Source of the DNA: Linum tenue
Lineage: Eukaryota > Streptophyta > Magnoliopsida > Malpighiales > Linaceae
Length of the DNA: 64,000 bases
Assembly (NCBI GenBank): GCA_946122785.1
Contig: CAMGYJ010000002.1
Coordinates: forward strand, 60,413,703 to 60,477,702
Direction: 5' to 3'
Part shown: piece after piece, positions 2,761-19,805 of the stretch
Numbering within the stretch: the first letter of the stretch is position 1
Layout of the letters: each line of letters starts with the position of its first letter
Translations under genes and position numbers: made by a program
Notes under the pieces: generated by a model
Database searches by the model: none
The model's input: the letters and a program-made list of their open reading frames with translations, nothing else
Told to the model about the DNA's origin: nothing

Positions 2761-3648
2761 TAGGGGTGATAAACGGTTAGTCGGTTATCGGTTTTAACCG
2801 ATAACCGAACCGATAAAGTCGGTTAGTGGTTAACCGATAACCGCTACTTCCTTATTGATTTCGGTTTCGGTTAGTAGTATTTTGGTTAGTGGTTAACCGC
2901 TAACCGCCTACTAGTGTGACTACATGATTTTTTACTTTGGCTAAGGAAAAAAGTTGTAAGATTCAAAACCAATCAACGTTGCAATTCCAAACATCCCAAT
3001 TCTCACCTATTGTAAACAACCCTCCATCAAGAGTCTCAAATGTTTTTAAGAGTTAGAACTCGAAAGTCACCCCTCTCTAAATCCCCTTTGCACTCGATAG
3101 AGTGAACCTTAGGTTGATGACTATGGGCTAGATGAAGATCTTGGAGTAAATGATGACTATGGGCTAGATGAATTGGAGCGAGATCCTCGGATCATTTAGG
3201 TTGATGATTTGGAGATAATGAACTTGTTATTTGTGTCTTGTTGTGATTGTGACTTGTGGTTGAATTGTGGGCATGTAGACTTTATGTTGCGGAGTTGTGG
3301 TTGAATTGTGTGGTTGCTTTAGGCTTTATGTTCAATTGATTTAGATGACTTTATGGTGTGTGATTATAGAGGCTGAAACAAAAGCAGGTCACTTAAAAAT
3401 TGAGGGTGAATCATTAAAAAAGGTGGTTGAAATTCGGTTTTGGGTGGTCGGTTTCTGAACGAAAACCGAAAAAGTGAACCAGAAACTACGATTTCGGTTA
3501 ACCGCAAGGGAAAACCGAAACCGATGTTTGCGGTTTTCGGTTAACCGAAGTCTCTGTCGGTTTCGGTTAGTGATCTTGGGACAATTTTGGTTGCGATTAA
3601 CCGATATTTCGGTGCGGTTAAACCGAAACCACACCGACTAACACCCTA
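2761..3648. mobile_element. hAT-like MITE with CGGTTAACCG-type subterminal repeats, inside the hAT pseudogene
   Basis: An 888-bp element with ends TAGGGGTGAT and GACTAACACCCTA, flanked by a perfect 8-bp duplication TATGCATG (2753-2760 and 3649-3656). Both ends are packed with CGGTTAACCG and CCGATAACCG words; the middle is AT-rich and non-coding. The 8-bp duplication and TA-GGG ends point to hAT-type mobilisation. Confidence 0.85.
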
Positions 3649-7438: not shown

Positions 7439-7447
7439 TAGGAATTA
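7439..7447. repeat. Left 9-bp target-site duplication of the large MULE
   Basis: TAGGAATTA, identical to 18887-18895. A 9-bp duplication is characteristic of Mutator-like elements. Confidence 0.92.
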
Positions 7448-7999
7448 GGGTATGCCTACTATGACATGCATGTCACGGTGACATGCACTTTTCGGTCGAC
7501 CTATTCCTAAGGGCGGTCGACCGAATAGTCTAATTTGGGCAGCACGAGAAAGCCTTGCGGTCGACCGCCACGACCACCTGGTCGACCGCATTTAGTTTAA
7601 GTTGGTATTTTTGGTCGACCAGAATAGAACCTCGGTCGGCCATTTCGTTGGCGTCAGAAACAACATGGTCGACCACCTAATATATAGGTCGACCACTTGA
7701 TGGCAGTAATTAACAAAATGGTCGACCGGATAAGGAAAGAGGTCGACCAGATAGAAGATAAGTGTTCTATCAAAGTGTCCAATCATTTGACGTAAAATGG
7801 AGATCAAGTGTTGGTTTCTCGGTCGACCTAATCCTGTACGAGGTCGACCGAATACAAGAAAGTCAACCTATGCCCCGTGTCTTTTTTGGTTATGTATGTC
7901 GATTTGTGTGGTTAATTTAATCGTATAAATTATGTTTCAAACCATCATAATTAGTCAATTATAACAAGGACTCATCAATCCATAGCATAACAACTAAAA

Positions 8000-8138
8000 A
8001 TAAAACACACATAAAATAGCATAATTGTTCACCACATAAAAATAAAACTAAAAAAACCATCATAGCATAATTGTTCACACATAAAAATAAAACTAAAAAA
8101 ATAACATAAAAATAAAACTAAAAAAATAAAACTAAAAA
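8000..8138. repeat. A-rich short tandem repeat at the 3' end of the third MULE gene
   Basis: Repeats of AAAATAAAACTAAAAAA and CATAGCATAATTGTTCA over about 130 bp. Read on the minus strand this is the T-rich 3' region directly after the stop codon at 8139-8141. Confidence 0.6.
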
Positions 8139-9401
8139 CTACTCATCTCCCCCCTCTCCCTCATTCACATTTTCTTCATTTTCTTCATTGGTGGTGGTAG
8201 CATGGTGGTCAGATGTGGTGGGATGCATGTATCTTCCGCTGAAAGATCGCCACTCATCTCGCATCTCATTCACGGACAGCTGCATTGTGCTCATCTGGGC
8301 GTTCATTTGCCCCATGTAGTCGTACATGCCAGTCATCTGGGCGTTCATCTGGCCCATGTACTCGTACATGCCATCCATGCGCTCCCACACACGCTGTAAG
8401 GTGATCGGTGGAGTTGAAGTCTGTGCCTCCCCCATTGGCTCGTCTCGAGCTCCTTGATCACCATCATCACCATCATCATCCTCATCATCATCATCATCAC
8501 CACCACCAGCATGAGCAATGTTTGCTCTGACATACTCACCATTACGCAGCTCAAAGCCCATCTTTTTCAGAGATGAAACAGTATAGAACTCCTGCCTTGA
8601 GATCGATAACCCCACCTCTTCACTTAAATTCACATTAAAATGCTCAAATATCACAGTGAGGATCATCCCATAGGGAAGATTCCTGTTTGAACTCTCAGCA
8701 GCAGTAAGCATGTGGTTAAAGATCAAGTATGGCAAGTTCACCTTCTCGTTTAACAGTAGGTTGGTGAGGAGCTCCATGTCGAAGTAGGTGACTGTCTCCC
8801 GATGTCCACCCTTTGGCAGAATGTTGTAGGAAAGCATGTGGTGAAGAACTCTGGCTTGAACTGTCAGGTGGTTACTCGATGGCCTATTGCGCCCCTCAGC
8901 ATGTTCCTCTTCATCAAGACCACATACGGTCTGGATTTGCTTGGCTCTCGTGTAATGCGTTTCATTCCAAGCACCGTAAGAATTGATTCTCCTCCCCGCG
9001 TTTGGAGCCTCCAGTACTTGCGCCAACACATTCTTGCTGATGCGCATCGCCACCCCATTCACATAGGATTTGAATGTGTGAATGGATCCATTTGCATTGC
9101 GCTCGTAGGAGATGTTGTTGTAGAAGTATTGTACCATTTTTGGGTAGTATGGTACATTGAGTGATATCACCTTCAACCACTCCTGATCGACGAAGGGTCC
9201 CAGAAACCCGTAATTCTCGAAATGAGAATACGCATCCGTCGTCAATGGCCTTCCCGGAACCACCCTCCGGTTGTGCATACTCTTCTCTTCGTAGTTCTCA
9301 CTTTGCTCCTTCGACTGGAACAAATTCGAATTGAACTCTTCCCATTCCGAACTTGAAGCAGCAGCTTTTTGTGTCTTTCTTTTCTTTTTGCCGCCAAACA
9401 T
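8139..9401 (-). CDS. MULE-encoded 420-aa protein resembling the 'putative plant transposon protein' domain family
   Basis: I chose the ATG at 9401-9399 (MFGGKKKRKTQK) because a splice acceptor (GATCGCAG) ends one base before it. An upstream ATG would add nine residues. Residues 1-12 are basic, a likely nuclear signal. Residues about 45-230 (NRRVVPGRPL, VPYYPKMVQYFYNNI, FKSYVNGVAMRISKN) resemble the Transposase_32-type domain found in plant transposon ORFs. Then come an acidic run (GGGDDDDDEDDDGDDGD), imperfect repeats of MYEYMGQMNAQM likely to form a coiled coil, and an acidic tail. There is no DDE motif, so it is not the transposase itself. It may be a DNA-binding or regulatory partner; I infer this from the element's motif arrays and not from homology. 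It is the last gene of the element, transcribed from a promoter 2.6 kb upstream across a large 5'-UTR intron. Confidence 0.75.
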   Translation of the reverse strand: MFGGKKKRKTQKAAASSSEWEEFNSNLFQSKEQSENYEEKSMHNRRVVPGRPLTTDAYSHFENYGFLGPFVDQEWLKVISLNVPYYPKMVQYFYNNISYERNANGSIHTFKSYVNGVAMRISKNVLAQVLEAPNAGRRINSYGAWNETHYTRAKQIQTVCGLDEEEHAEGRNRPSSNHLTVQARVLHHMLSYNILPKGGHRETVTYFDMELLTNLLLNEKVNLPYLIFNHMLTAAESSNRNLPYGMILTVIFEHFNVNLSEEVGLSISRQEFYTVSSLKKMGFELRNGEYVRANIAHAGGGDDDDDEDDDGDDGDQGARDEPMGEAQTSTPPITLQRVWERMDGMYEYMGQMNAQMTGMYDYMGQMNAQMSTMQLSVNEMRDEWRSFSGRYMHPTTSDHHATTTNEENEENVNEGEGGDE

Positions 9402-9660
9402 CCTGCGATCAAAGAAGCAAGAATACACATTAGTCCAATTTTCGAAATGAACAATACGCGGTCGACCACTCCATAAAGCGGTCGACCATAATTAATTTAA
9501 AACGAGAATGGGTCGACCTCAGAAGAAACACAGGTCGACCTCAGTTAGTTTAAAACGAGAACAGGTCGACCTCAGAAGAAGCATAGGTCGACCTCAGCTA
9601 ATTTAAAACGAGAATGGGTCGATATAAACCCGTAACAATTCAAATACAAAATTGCCTTCA

Positions 9661-11300
9661 TAGGTCGACCTCAGAACCATCATAGGTCGACCTCGGCTAA
9701 ATGAAAACGAGCATAAAATGGCCCAAATGATGGTACCAATTGAGTGCAAAACAGATCCGGTCGACCTCATAATCTGAAGAGGTCGACCAGTGGTAGTTTC
9801 ACACAATTTGAAATACAATGAGACAATAACTCTCACTTTTGCCTTCATAGGTCGACCTCAGAACCATCATAGGTCGACCTCGGCTAAATTAAAACGAGCA
9901 TAAAATGGCCCAAATGATGGTACCAATTGAGTGCAAAACAGATCCGGTCGACCTCATAATCTGAAGAGGTCGACCAGTGGTAGTTTCGCACAATTTGAAA
10001 TACAATGAGACAATAACTCGCACTTTTGCCCTCATAGGTCGACCTCAAAACCATCATAGGTCGACCTCGGCTAAATGAAAACGAGCATAAAATGGCCCAA
10101 ATGATGGTACCAATTGAGTGCAAAACAGATCCGGTCGACCTCATAATCTGAAGAGGTCGACCAGTGGTAGTTTCGCACAATTTGAAATACAATGAGACAA
10201 TAACTCGCACTTTTGCCCTCATAGGTCGACCTCAGAACCATCATAGGTCGACCTCGGCTAAATGAAAACGAGCATAAAATGGCCCAAATGATGGTACCAA
10301 TTGAGTGCAAAACAGATCCGGTCGACCTCATAATCTGAAGAGGTCGACCAGTGGTAGTTTCACACAATTTGAAATACAATGAGACAATAACTCTCACTTT
10401 TGCCTTCATAGGTCGACCTCAGAACCATCATAGGTCGACCTCGGCTAAATTAAAACGAGCATAAAATGGCCCAAATGATGGTACCAATTGAGTGCAAAAC
10501 AGATCCGGTCGACCTCATAATCTGAAGAGGTCGACCAGTGGTAGTTTCACACAATTTGAAATACAATGAGACAATAACTCGCACTTTTGCCCTCATAGGT
10601 CGACCTCAGAACCATCATAGGTCGACCTCGGCTAAATGAAAACGAGCATAAAATGCCTTAAATGATGGTACCAATTGAGTGCAAAACAGATCCGGTCGAC
10701 CTCATAATCTGAAGAGGTCGACCAGTGGTAGTTTCGCACAATTTGAAATACAATGAGACAATAACTCGCACTTTTGCCCTCATAGGTCGACCTCAGAACC
10801 ATCATAGGTCGACCTCGGCTAAATGAAAACGAGCATAAAATGGCCCAAATGATGGTACCAATTGAGTGCAAAACAGATCCGGTCGACCTCATAATCTGAA
10901 GAGGTCGACCAGTGGTAGTTTCACACAATTTGAAATACAATGAGACAATAACTCTCACTTTTGCCTTCATAGGTCGACCTCAGAACCATCATAGGTCGAC
11001 CTCGGCTAAATTAAAACGAGCATAAAATGGCCCAAATGATGGTACCAATTGAGTGCAAAACAGATCCGGTCGACCTCATAATCTGAAGAGGTCGACCAGT
11101 GGTAGTTTCACACAATTTGAAATACAATGAGACAATAACTCGCACTTTTGCCCTCATAGGTCGACCTCAGAACCATCATAGGTCGACCTCGGCTAAATGA
11201 AAACGAGCATAAAATGCCCCAAATGATGGTACCAATTGAGTGCAAAACTTCACAGGTCGACCTCATAATCTAAAGAGGTCGACCTCAGTCCATAAAACAG
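9661..11300. repeat. 187-bp tandem satellite, 8 full copies plus a partial ninth, with 561-bp higher-order period
   Basis: Copies begin at 9661, 9848, 10035, 10222, 10409, 10596, 10783, 10970 and 11157, exactly 187 bp apart. Each holds four GGTCGACC palindromes as two pairs 22 bp apart. Variants recur every third copy: CTCTCAC/CCTTC in copies 1, 4 and 7, and AAATTAAAA in copies 2, 5 and 8. The array therefore amplified as a 3-mer. Open frames reading through it are repeat artefacts. Confidence 0.95.
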
Positions 11301-11740
11301 AAAGGAAAAGCGGAATGAAAGCCAGATGCGGTCGACCACGAACATGGGAAGGTCGACCGCACGTGGCGTACAAAAGTGAAAATCCCTCTTTTTCAAGCTA
11401 CATATCTACAAAACACGGCCAGAAATAATAGAAAGACATCACAGGTCGACCTCAAAATCATCATAGGTCGACCTCAGTCCATAAAACAGAAAGGAAAAGC
11501 GGAATGAAAGCTAGATGCGGTCGACCACGAATTTGAGAAGGTCGACCGCACCTGGCGTACAGAAGGAAAAATCCCTCTTTTTCAAGCTACAGATCTACAA
11601 AACACGGCCAGAAATAATAGAAAGACATCACAGGTCGACCTCAAAATCATCATAGGTCGACCTCAGTCCATAAAACAGAAAGGAAACTAGATTACAAGTC
11701 AGTTGCGGTCGACCACGATGATGAACAGGTCGACCGCTTC
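11286..11740. repeat. 189-bp tandem repeat, two copies plus a partial third
   Basis: CAGTCCATAAAACAGAAAGG recurs at 11286, 11475 and 11664. Each unit carries GGTCGACC pairs and the segment AAACACGGCCAGAAATAATA. It directly adjoins the 187-bp array and has a different unit sequence. Confidence 0.9.
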
Positions 11741-11847
11741 TGACGAACAGAAGCAAAAACCCCTCTTTTCCATCTTTAGATTTTTTGAAAACAAAAGGAA
11801 GAAGACAAGAATCAACCCAAATGAAAAAGAAGAGTGAAAAGCATTAC

Positions 11848-12022
11848 CTTGTTGTTCTTCTAAGTGATGAGGATGAAGGTTTTCAAGAGTTTTTGGAAAA
11901 TGGTGTTTTTGGAAATGGGAGAAGAAGATGAAGAAGGGAAAGGAGAGGAAGAATGAGTGGATGTGGGGGGGATAGGGTTCTGATTGTGGTGTAGAATGAG
12001 TGGGGGAGGGTTTCTTAAATAG
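11848..12022 (-). promoter_or_regulatory. Promoter and non-coding first exon of the 420-aa gene
   Basis: TATTTAA (12021-12015, minus strand) is followed by a CT-rich leader of about 140 bp that ends at a good donor (CAAG|GTAATG) at 11848. This is predicted from sequence signals only. Confidence 0.45.
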
Positions 12023-12284
12023 AGGATGAAGGGAGGTTTGGGTGGGTGGTCTGGTCAGGTCAACCGGTTTGGTCGGCCGTATTAAATGCGCGGTCGACCG
12101 CGCTAATGTGTACGGTCGACCTCCTTTGGTCCGGTCAACCGGCACTTTTATGAGGTCGACCGTTTATGACTTTATTTCAACCCACAATCAATTAACTCAT
12201 ACATTAGTAAGATAATTCGAAGATAATACAATGCAATCACAGTTATTAAAAAATAAAACAACTCCTAAAAAAAATAGAAGAAAT

Positions 12285-14552
12285 TTAAGATCCTTTTTTG
12301 GGACTTTGTTTCGGGCACTTGGGGCGAAAATGACCATATTTCCCACATTTCGAACACTTTCTCAAACTTTTGCCCGATGCAGTTCGTGCTGACTTGAATG
12401 TCCCCTTGGTCTTCCCAATTTTTGGATCTTTCACACTTCGAAGGGGTGCTGGAGGGTTTGCCGGTGTGGTGTTGTCTTCTCTCTCCTTCGCGAACTCAAT
12501 TGCCCATTGAGTAAGGTCGTCCAACGTCTTAGAGACATGATTAAAAGCAGATTCACTACCACACGCGATGTCACATAAACGCTTACACTTTAGAGCCAAT
12601 CCTCCATGTCTTATCAGTCGACCAACTCTCTCTCCCACATCACCTCCAACTCTAGGATGACGATTTAGTGTCTTCGCATTTTGGGTCCAGCGAAGCTTGA
12701 ACCAAGTCGAGGGTAGTGTGGTGTATCCCATATTTTTTATTACTGTAAGCATGTGTCTGCATGGAAACCCCTTAGATTCAAATAATGCACACTCGCATTT
12801 GAGATCTTGAGTGGACGTAGTAAATGTTAACCGCCTTATCCGATCTGGGTTCATGTAGTTCTTCAGTATGAATGTCTCTGTCCCATCTGATTCATTTCTT
12901 CTCTCCGCTAATACATAAGAAGCTTCATTCTCTAGTTCAGTCTTGAAGATAGCAAATGTACGATGAGTGTAGATACTTTCAGCTTGCATTTCCCAAGTGC
13001 GCAGGGCATGCTTGCAGACCAACCTCGTGTGCCTAGAAGAATAATCATCCTGCGTCTCCGTGAAACGCATCCCCTCCAGTGCTTCATCAATGCCCTGAAC
13101 AAAACGTTGCAAGCTGTATTGAGTTCCCACATACCCATTTATCCAATGGTTACATGACTCACATCGCGAGGTTGATTGGAGTCCACCGAAATAAATATCC
13201 TTCAAGTATGCCTCTGCCCACAGTAATTTGTCAGCGTACAAATCCTGCAACCACTTATTTGCAGACAAGCCATGCTGACTAATCAAAAGCTCCCAACGCC
13301 TCTCAAACTCCTCAATCGATATTCGTGCTTTCGCCAAGTAAGTGAATGCGCTAACGAACTCCTTATTATGAACGGCTGTTGTCGCATTTGTCTCAATATG
13401 CCAAATACAAAGACGGTGAGGCACTCCAACCAGAACAGTAGCAATGGCACCACGCATAGACTTGTCTCCGTCTGTGATCACTGAAGTGGGCATCTTAGAG
13501 TTCATACACTCCAGAAAAGTATTCAACAACCAAACATAGTTGGGGATTGTCTCGTTATCCAACTGGGCAAAACCATATATGATGTTACGGTGGTGGTGAT
13601 TTACACCAACCATCATAACAAATGGTCGATTGTACCTGTTGCGCTTGTAGCATGCATCGAACGCCAAGACATCCCCAAAAAAATGGTAATCTGCTCTAGA
13701 TGTGGAGTCCGACCAAAAGAGATTGCCTAATTCACCTTCATCGTTGGTTGTGTACTTGAAGAAGCTGCCCGCATCAGAGCTATGTTTACTTTGTAAGTAA
13801 CCCAATGTTCGGTTAACATCTCCTATTAGATCGTCGTCAACTGTTCGGGATTGCTGAACAGCATTGTCCAAATCCTTTGGAGTGTACCCCAGATTCTCAT
13901 ATCCTCCAACTTTATTCTTCATGAACTGAACAATGTTGCGTTGTTTTATTCCTGACTGTCGCATCCCTATCGCCAGAGCCTTGTCTCCTTCACTCACATT
14001 TCGATGAGACCGAAGGAATTGAGTTTCTTCTTCATTGCAGCAACGATGTGAGTGCTTCCTCTCAAACTTAGAAACAACCCACATTTTCTTATTCCGATCA
14101 AATCGTACAGTATACGATGCCTTGCAAGAATGTCTTGTCATCTTACGATGTTGCCGAATCCGACCTTCTTTATCTATATGCATCTTATCTCTAGTCCCCT
14201 CTCTCGAACATACCATTGTCCTCCCAATTGCTACTCCTCGACGACTCCTCCGAAGATCTCTACGTCGAACGCTAAATCCTTTCGCTTTAGCATAGGAATC
14301 GTAAAATTTCTCTGCATCTTCTAATGTTTGGAACTCCATGGAAGGAATTTGTTGTTCATATTCAGTAGCTTCTTCATCATCCAAAAATTCTTCTTCTGCA
14401 CCCTCGGTTTCATAATCATCTCCAAAGACTTCATCATCGGTATTATCTGTATCATCTGAATTATCCATAGCTCCTTCTCGAGCATCATTAGGTTCCTCAT
14501 CGAAGTTAACCTCATCATCATCTCTATCGTCTGTATCATCTCTGTTATCCAT
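12285..14552 (-). CDS. FAR1-type Mutator-like transposase, 755 aa, intact
   Basis: A single uninterrupted frame. The acidic N-terminus contains a duplicated DNxDDTD motif. A FAR1-like zinc-binding domain spans about 73-172 (C115, C143 and HSH at 167-169, after FYDSYAKAKGFSVRR). The MULE catalytic core has D299 (FDACYKRNRY), D361 (VITDGDKSM), C382/H385 (CIWH) and E465 (RCESCN), the expected DDE set. A SWIM finger is at C586-x-C588...C598-x-H600. A CCHC zinc knuckle C733-C736-H741-C746 ends the protein. Related FHY3/FAR1 host factors descend from such transposases. The enzyme should bind the element's terminal repeats and catalyse cut-and-paste transposition in the nucleus. The start ATG is preceded by an acceptor-like TTGCAG one base upstream. 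No frameshift or stop is present, so activity is plausible. Confidence 0.95.
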   Translation of the reverse strand: MDNRDDTDDRDDDEVNFDEEPNDAREGAMDNSDDTDNTDDEVFGDDYETEGAEEEFLDDEEATEYEQQIPSMEFQTLEDAEKFYDSYAKAKGFSVRRRDLRRSRRGVAIGRTMVCSREGTRDKMHIDKEGRIRQHRKMTRHSCKASYTVRFDRNKKMWVVSKFERKHSHRCCNEEETQFLRSHRNVSEGDKALAIGMRQSGIKQRNIVQFMKNKVGGYENLGYTPKDLDNAVQQSRTVDDDLIGDVNRTLGYLQSKHSSDAGSFFKYTTNDEGELGNLFWSDSTSRADYHFFGDVLAFDACYKRNRYNRPFVMMVGVNHHHRNIIYGFAQLDNETIPNYVWLLNTFLECMNSKMPTSVITDGDKSMRGAIATVLVGVPHRLCIWHIETNATTAVHNKEFVSAFTYLAKARISIEEFERRWELLISQHGLSANKWLQDLYADKLLWAEAYLKDIYFGGLQSTSRCESCNHWINGYVGTQYSLQRFVQGIDEALEGMRFTETQDDYSSRHTRLVCKHALRTWEMQAESIYTHRTFAIFKTELENEASYVLAERRNESDGTETFILKNYMNPDRIRRLTFTTSTQDLKCECALFESKGFPCRHMLTVIKNMGYTTLPSTWFKLRWTQNAKTLNRHPRVGGDVGERVGRLIRHGGLALKCKRLCDIACGSESAFNHVSKTLDDLTQWAIEFAKEREDNTTPANPPAPLRSVKDPKIGKTKGTFKSARTASGKSLRKCSKCGKYGHFRPKCPKQSPKKGS

Positions 14553-14553
14553 C

Positions 14554-15171
14554 CTGCAACGATCGGAATACGAACTTTATGTCAAAACATACACAATTAG
14601 CTCTCGTCAGGTCGACCTGAATGAACTGGACGGTCGACCTTATTAATAAATAACAAACATGCAACGATCGGAATACGAACTTAATGTCAAAACATACACA
14701 ATTAGCTCTCGTCAGGTCGACCTCAATGAACAGGACGGTCGACCTTATTACTAAATAACAAACATGCAACGATCGGAATACGAACTTAATGTCAAAACAT
14801 ACCCAATTAGCTCTCGTCAGGTCGACCTCAATGAACAGGACGGTCGACCTTATTACTAAATAACAAACATAAGGTCGACCTAATTTACTGAAAGGTCGAC
14901 CTAATCGAAAACTACGAAAGAACGGTCGACCGGATGGTGTTTGTGGTCGACCGGATGGTGGGAAAAATTTAGCCACATAGAACCATTAACAAGCATTTAC
15001 GAGGCATACCTTAGCAACGAGGTCGACCACTTATTGGTACGGTCTACCGGAATAAAAATAAACCGCCACCAACACCCGATCACAATAAGCGCGATGAGAT
15101 TATAACTTCACTCCAACAAATTGTAAGATTTCGTGGTACGATTAATGTCTGAAGACTCCCATCTATTTATA
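14554..15171 (-). promoter_or_regulatory. Transposase promoter, non-coding exon and 5'-UTR intron
   Basis: TATAAATA at 15171-15164 (minus strand) is followed by a leader. A donor (GTTGCTAAG|GTATGC) ends the leader exon at 15010, and the acceptor GTTGCAG ends at 14554, one base before the G-ATG. The 456-bp intron holds three copies of a 105-bp repeat and GGTCGACC pairs. Confidence 0.5.
14556..14870. repeat. 105-bp tandem repeat, three copies, just upstream of the transposase ATG
   Basis: GCAACGATCGGAATACGAAC recurs at 14556, 14661 and 14766, exactly 105 bp apart. Each unit carries two GGTCGACC palindromes 22 bp apart. The open frame across it is a repeat artefact. Confidence 0.95.
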
Positions 15172-15278
15172 GATAATTTAGACGAATTCCTTATCCAATT
15201 GGTTCAAGATATATAAAATCATAATTCGACAAGGACAAGTACACAAAATCCTAATTGTACAAGGACAGGAATCATCAC

Positions 15279-15470
15279 GGTCGACCTCTTTGCACAAATG
15301 GTCGACCGTCTTGGGTAAATGTGAAACAGGTCGACCTCTTTACACAAATGGTCGACCGTTGTTTTTAAATGTGAAACAGGTCGACCTCTTTACAGAAATG
15401 GTCGACCAATGATTATAAATGTGAGCACAGGTCGACCTCTTGACAAGAATGGTCGACCGTACTTTTATTA
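15279..15470. repeat. About 50-bp tandem repeat, four copies, carrying GGTCGACC pairs
   Basis: Units of the form GGTCGACCTCTTTACA, AAATGGTCGACC, TAAATGTGAAACA recur four times. The two palindromes in a unit start 21 bp apart. It lies between the transposase promoter and the 3' end of the protease gene. Confidence 0.85.
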
Positions 15471-15763
15471 AGGCCAAACAGACGAGTATCCATACTTATT
15501 TTACATGGTTTTTGACTTTCCTACAGTATCATAGGTCGACCTTAAGCTTCACGAGGTCGACCTGTGCTCTGCCTTTGGGTATGCCCGCTTTGAGTATGTG
15601 GTCGACCACTTGTTCTAGACGATTGAAATCGTAAATTCAGTCACATACATAATTGTATAACAAATCTAATAAACGATAAACATTCAAAATCCAAAATGAA
15701 ACGATCTCCCAAATACAAAATAAATGTATGGTCCAAATAATGCAACATTGTAACTTAACGACT

Positions 15764-17851
15764 TCATTTCTTTGCTTTTTTCTTGGAACTCTGTCTCTCT
15801 TTGCCTCGTTCCATGCATTCATCTACTACTGCCTTGAAAAGATTTTCTCGTGCACGGTTTTCAAAATGTGTAGCCAGATACCATAGAATCTCCTTTCGAG
15901 CCGGTAATTTGTGTTCTTCTCCTATCTGCATTATGCCATGTAAGATTTCGTTACAACTAAAAAAAGTGTAAATTATACTAGTTATTTGTTTGACGATATA
16001 CTCACCACTCTATCAAGATCCTTGGATCCATAGCGCATCCACTGCATGACGTGCACACCACACTCAGTACTATTCCTTTGTCGTTGAACTGGTAGCTCAT
16101 CAAAATTGAAATCTCCAAATTTTGGTACTACTACATTGCTCGTGCGCTCTGGTTTCAAAATATCATCCAAAGTGGACAACTACACACAAATAACGAATAT
16201 TTTAAACTTCTAGCATACTACGTAACGCTTAGTAGTCAGAAAATTATAGGAAACACTTACCAATTTCTTGCATAGTTCTGATTTAGGCCTACGATTCGCC
16301 TCAATAGTTGAAGGTAGACTGTCAAGCAAAAATGCAGTTTTTTGCTGGACATTGACGAGATACAGAAACCAATGACGTGCTTCATCTTCAAGAACTGGCA
16401 TAAATATCTAGCAACGAAACACTCACTATATGTTATAAACAGCGAATACAAACAAATGCACTTTCGAAATTTAATGATATAGGGACATTGACTAGACTAA
16501 CCTTCTGGCATGCACTGACATTCGGCATAAAGTCCACGCCATCATTGATCAACTTGTTACGAATTTGTCTGGTCTTCATGTTAGCGCGTACCATTTTCTG
16601 CACCATGTTTTAGTTGAGATGAATTGACATGGTACAATATAAATAACTAGGTTATGACAAATAATTTGACATTACGGCTCTTACCGAAAACATATTTGGA
16701 AAATACCACACATTTGGCTCTTTCACATCATGTTTTTCAGACATTGTTAGTGCCCTTGCACACAAATCCACTACCTACCATCCAACAATAAAACACAAAA
16801 TCATCGTAAATCGTAACATAAATAGTGCACAATTCATACGAAAGTCGTAGTAGTATAGTACTTACTGATGAGCAAACCCAGCTTTTCTCGCTAATGACCG
16901 AACTCAAATAATGTCGTTGCAGGTTTTCAGAAAAAAAGTCCACAATCATCAAACTGCAAAAATCAAGATAACAGAAATGTCAATTGTTTTTTTGCAACGT
17001 ACAGGTCGACCTGTACACAGTCAAGGTCGACCTTATTGGCCACACGGTCGACCTTATTGGACAACCGGTCGACCACACGTACTAGAAAAACGTCTTACTT
17101 GTCCCAATTCTTGTCCCCAACCTTCTCTTTAGTAACAACATAATACAAGTCTTCAACTGGATTTTGAAGATTTTTGGTGAATCCTTCTAGACCCTCCACT
17201 TTCATGACCTACAAATCATAGTTAAAATTAAAGTAACATATGAACACAAACACACATTATAGATGAAAATGTAACGTAAACTTACCCCGTGCTTTTCGAA
17301 AGGACTCTTAGATTCATCTTCATCGCTATCATCACTAAATAATCCCTTTCTTACAAATTGATCCTTCTGTGGAGTGGTGTAGGAGTCACTTTCATATCGC
17401 GGTCTCTTGTAATTAGGAGAGGAACCCTTGCGGCCATTCTTTGTTTCACTCTGTCAAACATATAAACAAAATAGATTAGCACTAATGATAGTAATACTAA
17501 TATCTTCAATCACATATGAATATACTTGGATACCTTTAAAATGTGCTCTTTCAATAAATCGTCTATGCTCTGGTAGCAATTTTCAGAGTCATCATGGTCT
17601 TCCTCCTCTTTACCAAAGTCAAATTTCTTTCCTTTACCATTTCTTCCGCCATTCTCCATTCGTTCTGCACTTATATCTTTGATAGCACCTTCTAGCCTCT
17701 CAAACCCGTCATGCATCATCCCAGTCATATCTGTCAGTCGAACTGACAAATGCTCTACTTGTGTTTGACACACCACCAGCTTCTCTTGTGTGGCTTTCAA
17801 CAATTTCATGATTTCACCCAAATCTTGATGCAGTTTCTCATCATGCGTCAT
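15764..17851 (-). CDS. Ulp1-type (C48) cysteine protease carried by the MULE, 9 exons, 449 aa
   Basis: Nine phase-consistent exons on the minus strand: 17851-17534, 17450-17286, 17208-17099, 16953-16866, 16774-16685, 16597-16502, 16407-16261, 16179-16006 and 15925-15764 (TGA). All introns are GT-AG. The N-terminal 100 residues look like a coiled coil (MKLLKATQEKLVVCQTQVEH) followed by basic and acidic stretches. The C-terminal half carries the C48 catalytic set: H301 (RHWFLYLVN), D318 (AFLLDS), Q372 and C378 (RQRNSTECGVHVMQW, the QxNxxDCG motif with E for D). Family members remove SUMO or ubiquitin-like modifiers. MULE-borne versions (Kaonashi) have unknown substrates. The triad is intact and the splice sites are good, so the gene looks functional. 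The exon chain was assembled by eye and needs transcript support. Confidence 0.85.
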
Positions 17852-17854
17852 CGT

Positions 17855-18545
17855 CTAAACAATTTAAAGAAAAATTAAAATCATAATTCAAGTACAAATT
17901 TCTATAATTGACCAAAAAACAAAGACGTGGTCGACCTGACAAAGTATTAGGTCGACCTGTAAGACAAATAGTGACTACCACAACTCGTCAGGTCGACCTC
18001 GGTTATTCCTAGGTCGACCTATCCAGCAGGAAAATAACAATTACAAACAAATAGTAAGTTCAAAATTAAACCGAAAAAAGGACAGGTCGACCAGATATCT
18101 GGCGCGGTCGACCTTTTCAAGCACAACATAGTCATACAAACAAAGCCAAAGTCGACATTCAGGTTGAATAACCAAAAAAACATATACGGTCGACCTTGAA
18201 ACTCATTAGGTCGACCGATTGGGTTACCTCGCAAGTACAGAAGTCCAAGTGTTGTGGCCTAAATTCAAATACGAAGAATTGTCTCGTCAGGTCGACCTGG
18301 TTGACGTCGCGGTCGACCGATTTGGATTCTGCACCCAACAATATATCAAGTTAGCCGGTGGAAATCACGCATTAAAAAAGAAGACGGCGAATGCTACATT
18401 AGGTCGACCTCACCTTAGACCTGGTCGACCTCTTCCAACACGTACAACAGCAACCGCGAACTAGGTTCTTCACAAAGGCTCTAAGTCGGAAAAAAACCTA
18501 ATTCAGACTTGGTGGCGTTGAAGGGGACTCATATTCGTATTTATA
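17855..18545 (-). promoter_or_regulatory. Promoter and predicted 5'-UTR intron of the Ulp1-like gene
   Basis: TATAAATA lies at 18545-18538 (minus strand). A plausible donor (GTCTAAG|GTGAGG) lies at 18414/18413, and the acceptor TTGTTTAG ends at 17855, three bases before the ATG. GGTCGACC pairs lie in the interval. The donor is the least certain part. Confidence 0.4.
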
Positions 18546-18886
18546 GAGATTTAGGACGTGAATGGGTCGACCCAATTCGTTTCCTTGTCCAATTGTGGAA
18601 CCTTTCTGGTGTTGGAATCCATATCCAATACGGATACGGTCTGAAGGCGGTCGACCTCTTCACAATGCGGTCGACCTATTAGTTGCACAAGGGTCGGCCT
18701 ATGCGATATCTGGGTCGACCTGTCATTCTGTTAGACCACTAAAACGGTCGACCGCATTTTGTAAGAGGTCGACCGCCTTCAGGAACCCAACATACATGAA
18801 TTAGCCCATTCGGTCGACCGCAAGTTGTATTCGGTCGACCGAAAAGTCCATGTCACGGTGACATGCATGTCACCGTAGCAAAATCC
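18546..18886. other. Right subterminal region and inverted repeat of the MULE
   Basis: Eight GGTCGACC copies, most in pairs 20-22 bp apart, lead into the 54-bp terminal repeat at 18833-18886. No open frame of interest. Confidence 0.8.
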
Positions 18887-18895
18887 TAGGAATTA

Positions 18896-19380: not shown

Positions 19381-19622
19381 AGATATTTTGATTTTTATAG
19401 TTTATTAATTAATTTTATTTTAATGATTAATTTAACTTTTGGTTCTTTGCCCATACAATTGTCAAGACTCAAGAGTGCCAACTGTATGCAAACCCTCCCA
19501 AATTAAATACCTGCATCCAAACCACCCATAGATATAATTTCAGCAGTCATGTTATTGTGTTTGTTGCTTCTTGTTTGATTGATTATGTAATTCTTTTCTT
19601 TTCGTTTCTTTTTCCAGAAGCA

Positions 19623-19805
19623 ATGGACGCTAGGGCTAGAAGAAGCAAAATTTGGGAGAATTTCACTCAAGTTGAATCAGAGGAGGAGGTCAAGCTTCAA
19701 TGCAACCATTGCATGAAGGTTTTTGGATGCTATCCTAATAAAAATGGGACAGTTTTACTGTGGAGGCATCTTAAGATGTGCACTAAGAGAAATCTTCAAG
19801 ATTAA
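19623..19805 (+). pseudogene. BED-type zinc-finger fragment of a hAT transposase
   Basis: A 60-residue frame starts MDARARRSKIWENFTQVE. It contains the BED finger ligands CNHC...WRHLKMC and stops at a TAA. A splice-acceptor-like TTTTTCCAG lies just upstream. The catalytic region does not follow; 19806-20100 is AT-rich with no match. It is likely the 5' end of an internally deleted hAT element. Confidence 0.75.

Follow-up and report, generated by a model that had tools for sequence, protein, structure and literature searches.

Paired palindromes and a companion protein with a predicted VANC21-like fold in a FAR1-type Mutator-like element of Linum tenue

Sequence-specific anti-silencing by transposons has been documented in the VANDAL elements of Arabidopsis, in which VANC21, an accessory protein encoded by VANDAL21 (Hiun), binds an arrayed motif, with a local loss of CG methylation and a wider loss of non-CG methylation (PMC5735166). 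As described in that account, the short motif of VANDAL21 is densely arrayed in tandem repeats, introns, and intergenic and terminal DNA; it is given as YAGTATTAY, which is non-palindromic and lies in one orientation. Here we describe a similar arrangement in a Mutator-like element (MULE) of a different type from a flax relative, Linum tenue. The element lies in a stretch of 64,000 nucleotides (assembly GCA_946122785.1, contig CAMGYJ010000002.1, positions 60,413,703 to 60,477,702 of the forward strand), which is hereafter called the window and within which positions are given. Its noncoding DNA is filled with GGTCGACC, a palindrome of 8 bp centred on a CpG, set in pairs 20-22 bp apart, and one of its three genes encodes a companion protein whose predicted fold resembles that of VANC21.

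The MULE occupies positions 7448-18886 and is flanked on both sides by an identical 9-bp target-site duplication, TAGGAATTA (7439-7447 and 18887-18895; 9/9 bp). Both the length of this duplication (8-10 bp, usually 9 bp, is expected) and the transposase domain PF10551 (E 1.5e-22) place the element in the MULE superfamily. Its ends are terminal inverted repeats (TIRs), the left one taken as far as the end of the first GGTCGACC (7448-7501, plus strand) with its outer 15 bp imperfect, and the right one containing the last GGTCGACC (18833-18886, minus strand); the distance between each element end and the start of the motif is exactly 46 bp. A further repeat, GTGACATG/CATGTCAC, is separate from GGTCGACC and occurs within the window at the MULE ends only. 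The initial annotation had counted about 110 palindromes by eye, and a scan of the window found 112 exact copies between 7494 and 18840, compared with a mean of 0.39 and a maximum of 2 in 100 dinucleotide shuffles of the window. All 112 lie inside the element, leaving the remaining 52,561 bases of the window free of them, and none touches the 4,881 bp (stop codons included) that encode the three proteins, where 25 TCGA and one GTCGAC do occur. The claimed absence of the palindrome from the flanking DNA and the coding exons was thus borne out, as was its presence in the terminal repeats, intergenic DNA and introns, each of which holds GGTCGACC.

The actual unit is a pair of GGTCGACC and not the single motif. 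A neighbour at 20-22 bp was found for 106 of the 112 sites, and the 53 disjoint pairs are spaced at 22 bp (26 pairs), 21 bp (24 pairs) or 20 bp (3 pairs). Consecutive gaps of 20-22 bp numbered 54, whereas the mean was 4.0 and the maximum 11 when 112 sites were placed randomly in the noncoding DNA of the element (2,000 draws). For four of the six unpaired sites, a partner with one mismatch lies at 20-21 bp; the other two lack one. Repeat units of 187, 189, 105 and 50 bp form tandem arrays of 8.7, 2.8, 3.0 and 3.6 copies, respectively, and grouping the spacers of the 53 pairs at 70% identity gives 27 clusters, with 13 and 9 pairs in the two largest; tandem duplication therefore accounts for many of the copies but not for the pairing rule. 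Palindromes two helical turns apart share one face of the DNA, and two dimers binding cooperatively would be the natural interpretation. The dimeric binder that had been predicted from the palindrome alone was refined in this respect, since a site made of two palindromes makes two dimers or a tetramer likelier than one dimer. We do not claim helical phasing between neighbouring pairs: among the 31 gaps left after repeats were collapsed by hand, phasing was weak at 10.5 bp (R 0.36, Rayleigh p ~0.017) and the period scan peaked at 12.4 bp.

The letters of the motif are several-fold less changed than other noncoding letters. Between the units of three tandem arrays, differences were found at 0/336 motif letters versus 30/1,625 other letters (Fisher p 0.006). 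We also compared the element with three genomic copies, L126, L125 and L124, over noncoding segments and excluding the main tandem array. Changed motif letters amounted to 0/264, 4/264 and 13/417, respectively, against 42/2138, 134/2147 and 251/3006 of the other letters (p 0.012, 0.0006 and 5e-5). Because sites picked as intact in one sequence are a biased choice, the test was reversed with the sites defined in the copies; this reversed test, which has the mirror-image bias, gave 0/260, 0/231 and 0/320 for the motif and 42/2142, 138/2180 and 264/3103 for the others. For CpGs alone, the changes were 0/85 versus 3/129, 1/85 versus 9/129 and 7/137 versus 22/202, none of which was significant. L126, L125 and L124 contain 81, 71 and 46 motifs in 10 kb, and paired sites account for 76, 61 and 30 of these, indicating that the most diverged copy, L124, has lost much of its pairing.

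The paired motif is present across the family. The arrangement GGTCGACC-N13-GGTCGACC, which corresponds to the 21-bp spacing, occurs 8,392 times in the 692-Mb genome (reversed control, 0), and the pairs listed lie partly within the same family and partly in short derivatives. The MULE end pattern was found 319 times on one strand and 317 times on the other. In a search of the genome with the companion protein, 100 of 2,231 candidates were scored; all were 87-100% identical and 75 of the 100 had no internal stop, so that the genome contains at least 100 companion genes, and this range of identity probably reflects a recent burst. At 30 companion loci, including that of the window, pairing holds for 1,179 of 1,250 motifs, and one-mismatch sites number 65. 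A genome search with PF20167, the Pfam family of the companion, in which 150 of 3,000 candidates were scored, returned 30 loci that partly overlap the places of the companion search; at each of the 30, GGTCGACC ranks first in enrichment among the 8-mers, with 13-40 copies per 3.55 kb. Near 427 kb of the contig G000 C2, we found an element of about 1.1 kb (L091, ~574-1659) with the same end as the MULE, its own 9-bp duplication AAAAAAATT and a fold-back interior seen by eye, which carries two GGTCGACC at one end and six at the other in 21-bp steps. This single element is a non-autonomous derivative without the three genes. A triple-motif pattern was also matched by one stretch in viral contigs and 88 in prokaryote contigs, and these 89 loci contain at most 13 motifs each. 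Of five bacterial 21-bp ladders of GGTCGACC (L055, L003, L038, L042 and L075), all except L075 are traversed by an open frame, and such ladders would mostly be coding seven-residue (heptad) repeats.

The companion gene (8139-9401, minus strand) encodes 420 amino acids and contains PF20167 (Transposase_32; E 1.1e-22 in the Pfam scan). Close to its N-terminus the protein has the sequence KKKRK; it also contains a 14-residue unit repeated twice, a run of acidic residues and a predicted long C-terminal helix. A model of its structure from the single sequence was discarded (mean predicted local distance difference test score, pLDDT, 37). In the fold search with the predicted companion, the crystal structure of VANC21 with DNA (PDB 9lnj) was the only match at E <= 0.001 among 350,542 PDB chains, and the same search of the viral structures in BFVD gave 0 matches at this threshold; a VANC-like fold is thus supported by prediction. 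No link between the companion and VANC21 was found at the sequence level. The initial annotation had suggested "an independent or distant version" of the VANC system, and the VANC21 structure as the only fold match makes a distant version, at the level of the fold, fit better than an independent one. In viral contigs, 165 stretches fitted the pattern for companion relatives and none was confirmed. Many PF20167 proteins were also present among the matches from Cephalotus follicularis, a plant of another order (for example P0009, P0010 and P0133).

All three genes are on the minus strand. The transposase gene (12285-14552; 755 amino acids) encodes FAR1 (E 2.6e-16), MULE and SWIM domains, with a sub-threshold CCHC knuckle. 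The third gene (15764-17851) has nine predicted exons and encodes an Ulp1-like C48 protease of 449 amino acids (PF02902, E 2.8e-13), the alignment of which to SENP2 covers the H, D and C stretches that we take to be catalytic. In the three genomic copies, the ratios of nonsynonymous to synonymous substitution rates (dN/dS) were 0.47, 0.74 and 0.72 for the companion, 0.33, 0.34 and 0.32 for the transposase, and 0.98, 0.56 and 0.66 for the Ulp1-like protein, all from small counts.

The element shares with VANDAL21 an accessory protein that it encodes itself and that has the same predicted fold (PMC5735166, PMC10398659, PDB 9lnj), a short motif arrayed densely in tandem repeats and in intronic, intergenic and terminal DNA, and lower conservation of the accessory protein than of the transposase. 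It differs from VANDAL21, as far as the latter is described, in having paired palindromes, a companion with PF20167 instead of the DUF1985/DUF287 of VANC, a transposase with FAR1, ends that are inverted repeats, and a host that is Linum and not Arabidopsis. Transposases of the VANDAL clade are listed with SWIM/CCHC, PMD or DUF domains, and FAR1 is listed for the Jittery group and not for VANDAL (PMC6446971). Some elements of the VANDAL group have TIRs, and TIRs alone therefore decide nothing on membership. The Pfam scan found no DUF1985 in the companion of the window and six relatives; a genome search for PF09331, in which 11 candidates were scored, gave 0 matches, although its controls were silent as well. 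Since the transposase carries FAR1 and DUF1985 did not turn up in the scan, membership in VANDAL is not supported and we do not file the element there. Compared by domain order, it resembles Jittery-type MULEs, with FAR1 at the N-terminus, SWIM or CCHC at the C-terminus, and TIRs, but these are listed with one open reading frame (ORF), whereas the present element has three genes (PMC6446971). Three genes, one with an Ulp1 domain, are described for Ulp1-carrying VANDALs (KIU, Kaonashi) and other plant MULEs; in KIU the Ulp1 domain is inside the VANC gene, whereas here the Ulp1-like and VANC-fold genes are separate (PMC13317346). According to the same source, the Ulp1 domain of such VANDALs is strongly conserved among eudicots, so that the occurrence of VANC-like systems beyond Arabidopsis is not a new idea.

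The motif arrays lie around the predicted promoters and at both ends. The left and right terminal arrays contain 11 motifs (7494-7849) and 8 motifs (18565-18840), respectively, and the other 93 of the 112 motifs lie outside them. Between the start codon of the companion gene and its TATA-like box (12015-12021, minus strand) is the main array of 52 motifs (9460-11735), which is probably a leader intron of that gene, and three more motifs are upstream of the box (12092-12161). The transposase gene has 11 motifs from its start codon to its TATA-like box (15165-15171, minus strand) at 14610-15028 and 11 motifs upstream of the box at 15279-15607. For the Ulp1-like gene, 12 motifs extend from the start codon to the TATA-like box (18539-18545, minus strand) at 17929-18430, and four motifs in exact 21-bp steps are within an intron (17004-17074). 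Thus, every TATA-like box has motifs on both sides, the nearest upstream at 71, 108 and 20 bp and the nearest downstream at 293, 150 and 122 bp for the companion, transposase and Ulp1-like genes, respectively. Two more TATA-like matches, at 15215 and 7686, appear incidental, and the putative leader introns were read from splice-like sites by eye.

With moderate confidence, we favour the explanation that this is a FAR1-type MULE outside VANDAL with a VANC-fold self-recognising anti-silencing system. For every step beyond the motif and the fold, we infer the following course in this element. The companion, probably acting as two dimers or as a tetramer, would bind pairs of GGTCGACC separated by two helical turns, in the arrays that lie on either side of the three predicted promoters and at both ends. 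Once bound, it would strip DNA methylation from the promoters and ends, and this demethylation would allow the genes to be transcribed, open the ends to the transposase and keep the family active, with specificity set by motif density.

Two observations weigh against this explanation, and another can be read in two ways. The TM-scores of the fold match are low. The faster change of the companion relative to the transposase is in keeping with a specificity factor and also with weaker constraint. Two diverged companion copies are about 85% identical over the stretch read, and while one of them (L158) has six GGTCGACC, the other (L157, G000 C2:25182650-25185049) has none in 2.4 kb and no replacement motif, although its companion frame is open with 226/265 identical residues; L157 may be rearranged or en route to host use. 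The main competing explanation, which we consider unlikely, is that the element's own transposase recognises GGTCGACC through its FAR1 domain, with the end sites serving synapsis and the internal arrays titrating or assisting the enzyme, as subterminal repeats may in other DNA transposons. FAR1 is a member of the WRKY-GCM1 group, and the sequence recognised by WRKY proteins, GGTCAA, differs from GGTCGA by one letter, which is in line with this alternative. The exact start of the motif 46 bp from each end also fits it, as does the single derivative without the three genes, which retains the same end and a 21-bp ladder, and subterminal tandem repeats are known for mosquito MULEs (PMC5225508). 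However, most of the motifs are away from the two terminal arrays, the end-only repeat GTGACATG/CATGTCAC could be the transposase site instead, and the VANC21-like fold of the companion would be left unexplained.

Slightly less likely again, in our judgement, is that the arrays are ordinary enhancers, bound by a host transcription factor or by the companion as a plain activator, with methylation not removed. In its favour, the motifs flank each predicted promoter while staying 20-108 bp away from the TATA-like boxes on the upstream side and 122-293 bp on the downstream side. However, they are also present at both ends, in a 3' terminal region, in the Ulp1-like intron and in the non-autonomous element without the three genes; moreover, VANC21 is described to demethylate some targets without detectable transcription (PMC5735166). 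That the arrays are neutral tandem repeats produced by duplication, with no binder, we regard as very improbable. Tandem arrays account for many motif copies, but the 27 spacer clusters share the exact motif at near-equal spacing, nearly all motifs at the 30 companion loci are paired, with 65 one-mismatch sites, and the slower change of the motif letters in the substitution tests disfavours neutral tandem duplication alone.

Outside the element, GGTTAACC occurs four times at 2828-3546, to the left of the MULE, among repeated CGGTT-like words within a different repeat. To the right, an open frame of 124 amino acids (19431-19805, plus strand) has a C-terminal part presumably resembling the BED-type zinc finger of hAT transposases.

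In the literature, we found no VANC-like fold for PF20167 and no paired-palindrome code, although the 2022 paper on VANDAL coevolution could contain more; no paper was found linking VANC (VANC21, DUF1985) with PF20167 (Transposase_32) or with Linum tenue, and among 30 listed of the 584 papers that contain GGTCGACC, none looked relevant as judged by titles and abstract openings. An extra ORF of the sunflower Athila retrotransposon has partial similarity to PF20167, the domain of the companion; unlike the present MULE, Athila is a long terminal repeat retrotransposon, and the available part of that source describes neither a motif array nor an anti-silencing role (PMC11728184). We raise tentatively, as somewhat short of probable, the idea that PF20167, which also occurs in Athila, is a large group of proteins that share the VANC fold and counteract silencing in a sequence-specific way, of which the present branch reads a methylatable CpG palindrome in helically phased pairs.

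The VANC-like fold together with a private motif points to the uncharacterised Pfam family PF20167 as the carrier. With a motif that is short, exact and paired, the recognition code can be tested directly, and it could become a tool for targeted demethylation; the central CpG of GGTCGACC raises the question of whether methylation itself gates binding. If the companion works like VANC21, transposon self-protection would be more widespread than is known, and if the idea holds for PF20167 in general, self-recognition by a private motif would be an old strategy common to DNA transposons and retrotransposons, and the name "transposase" for this family would be a misnomer.
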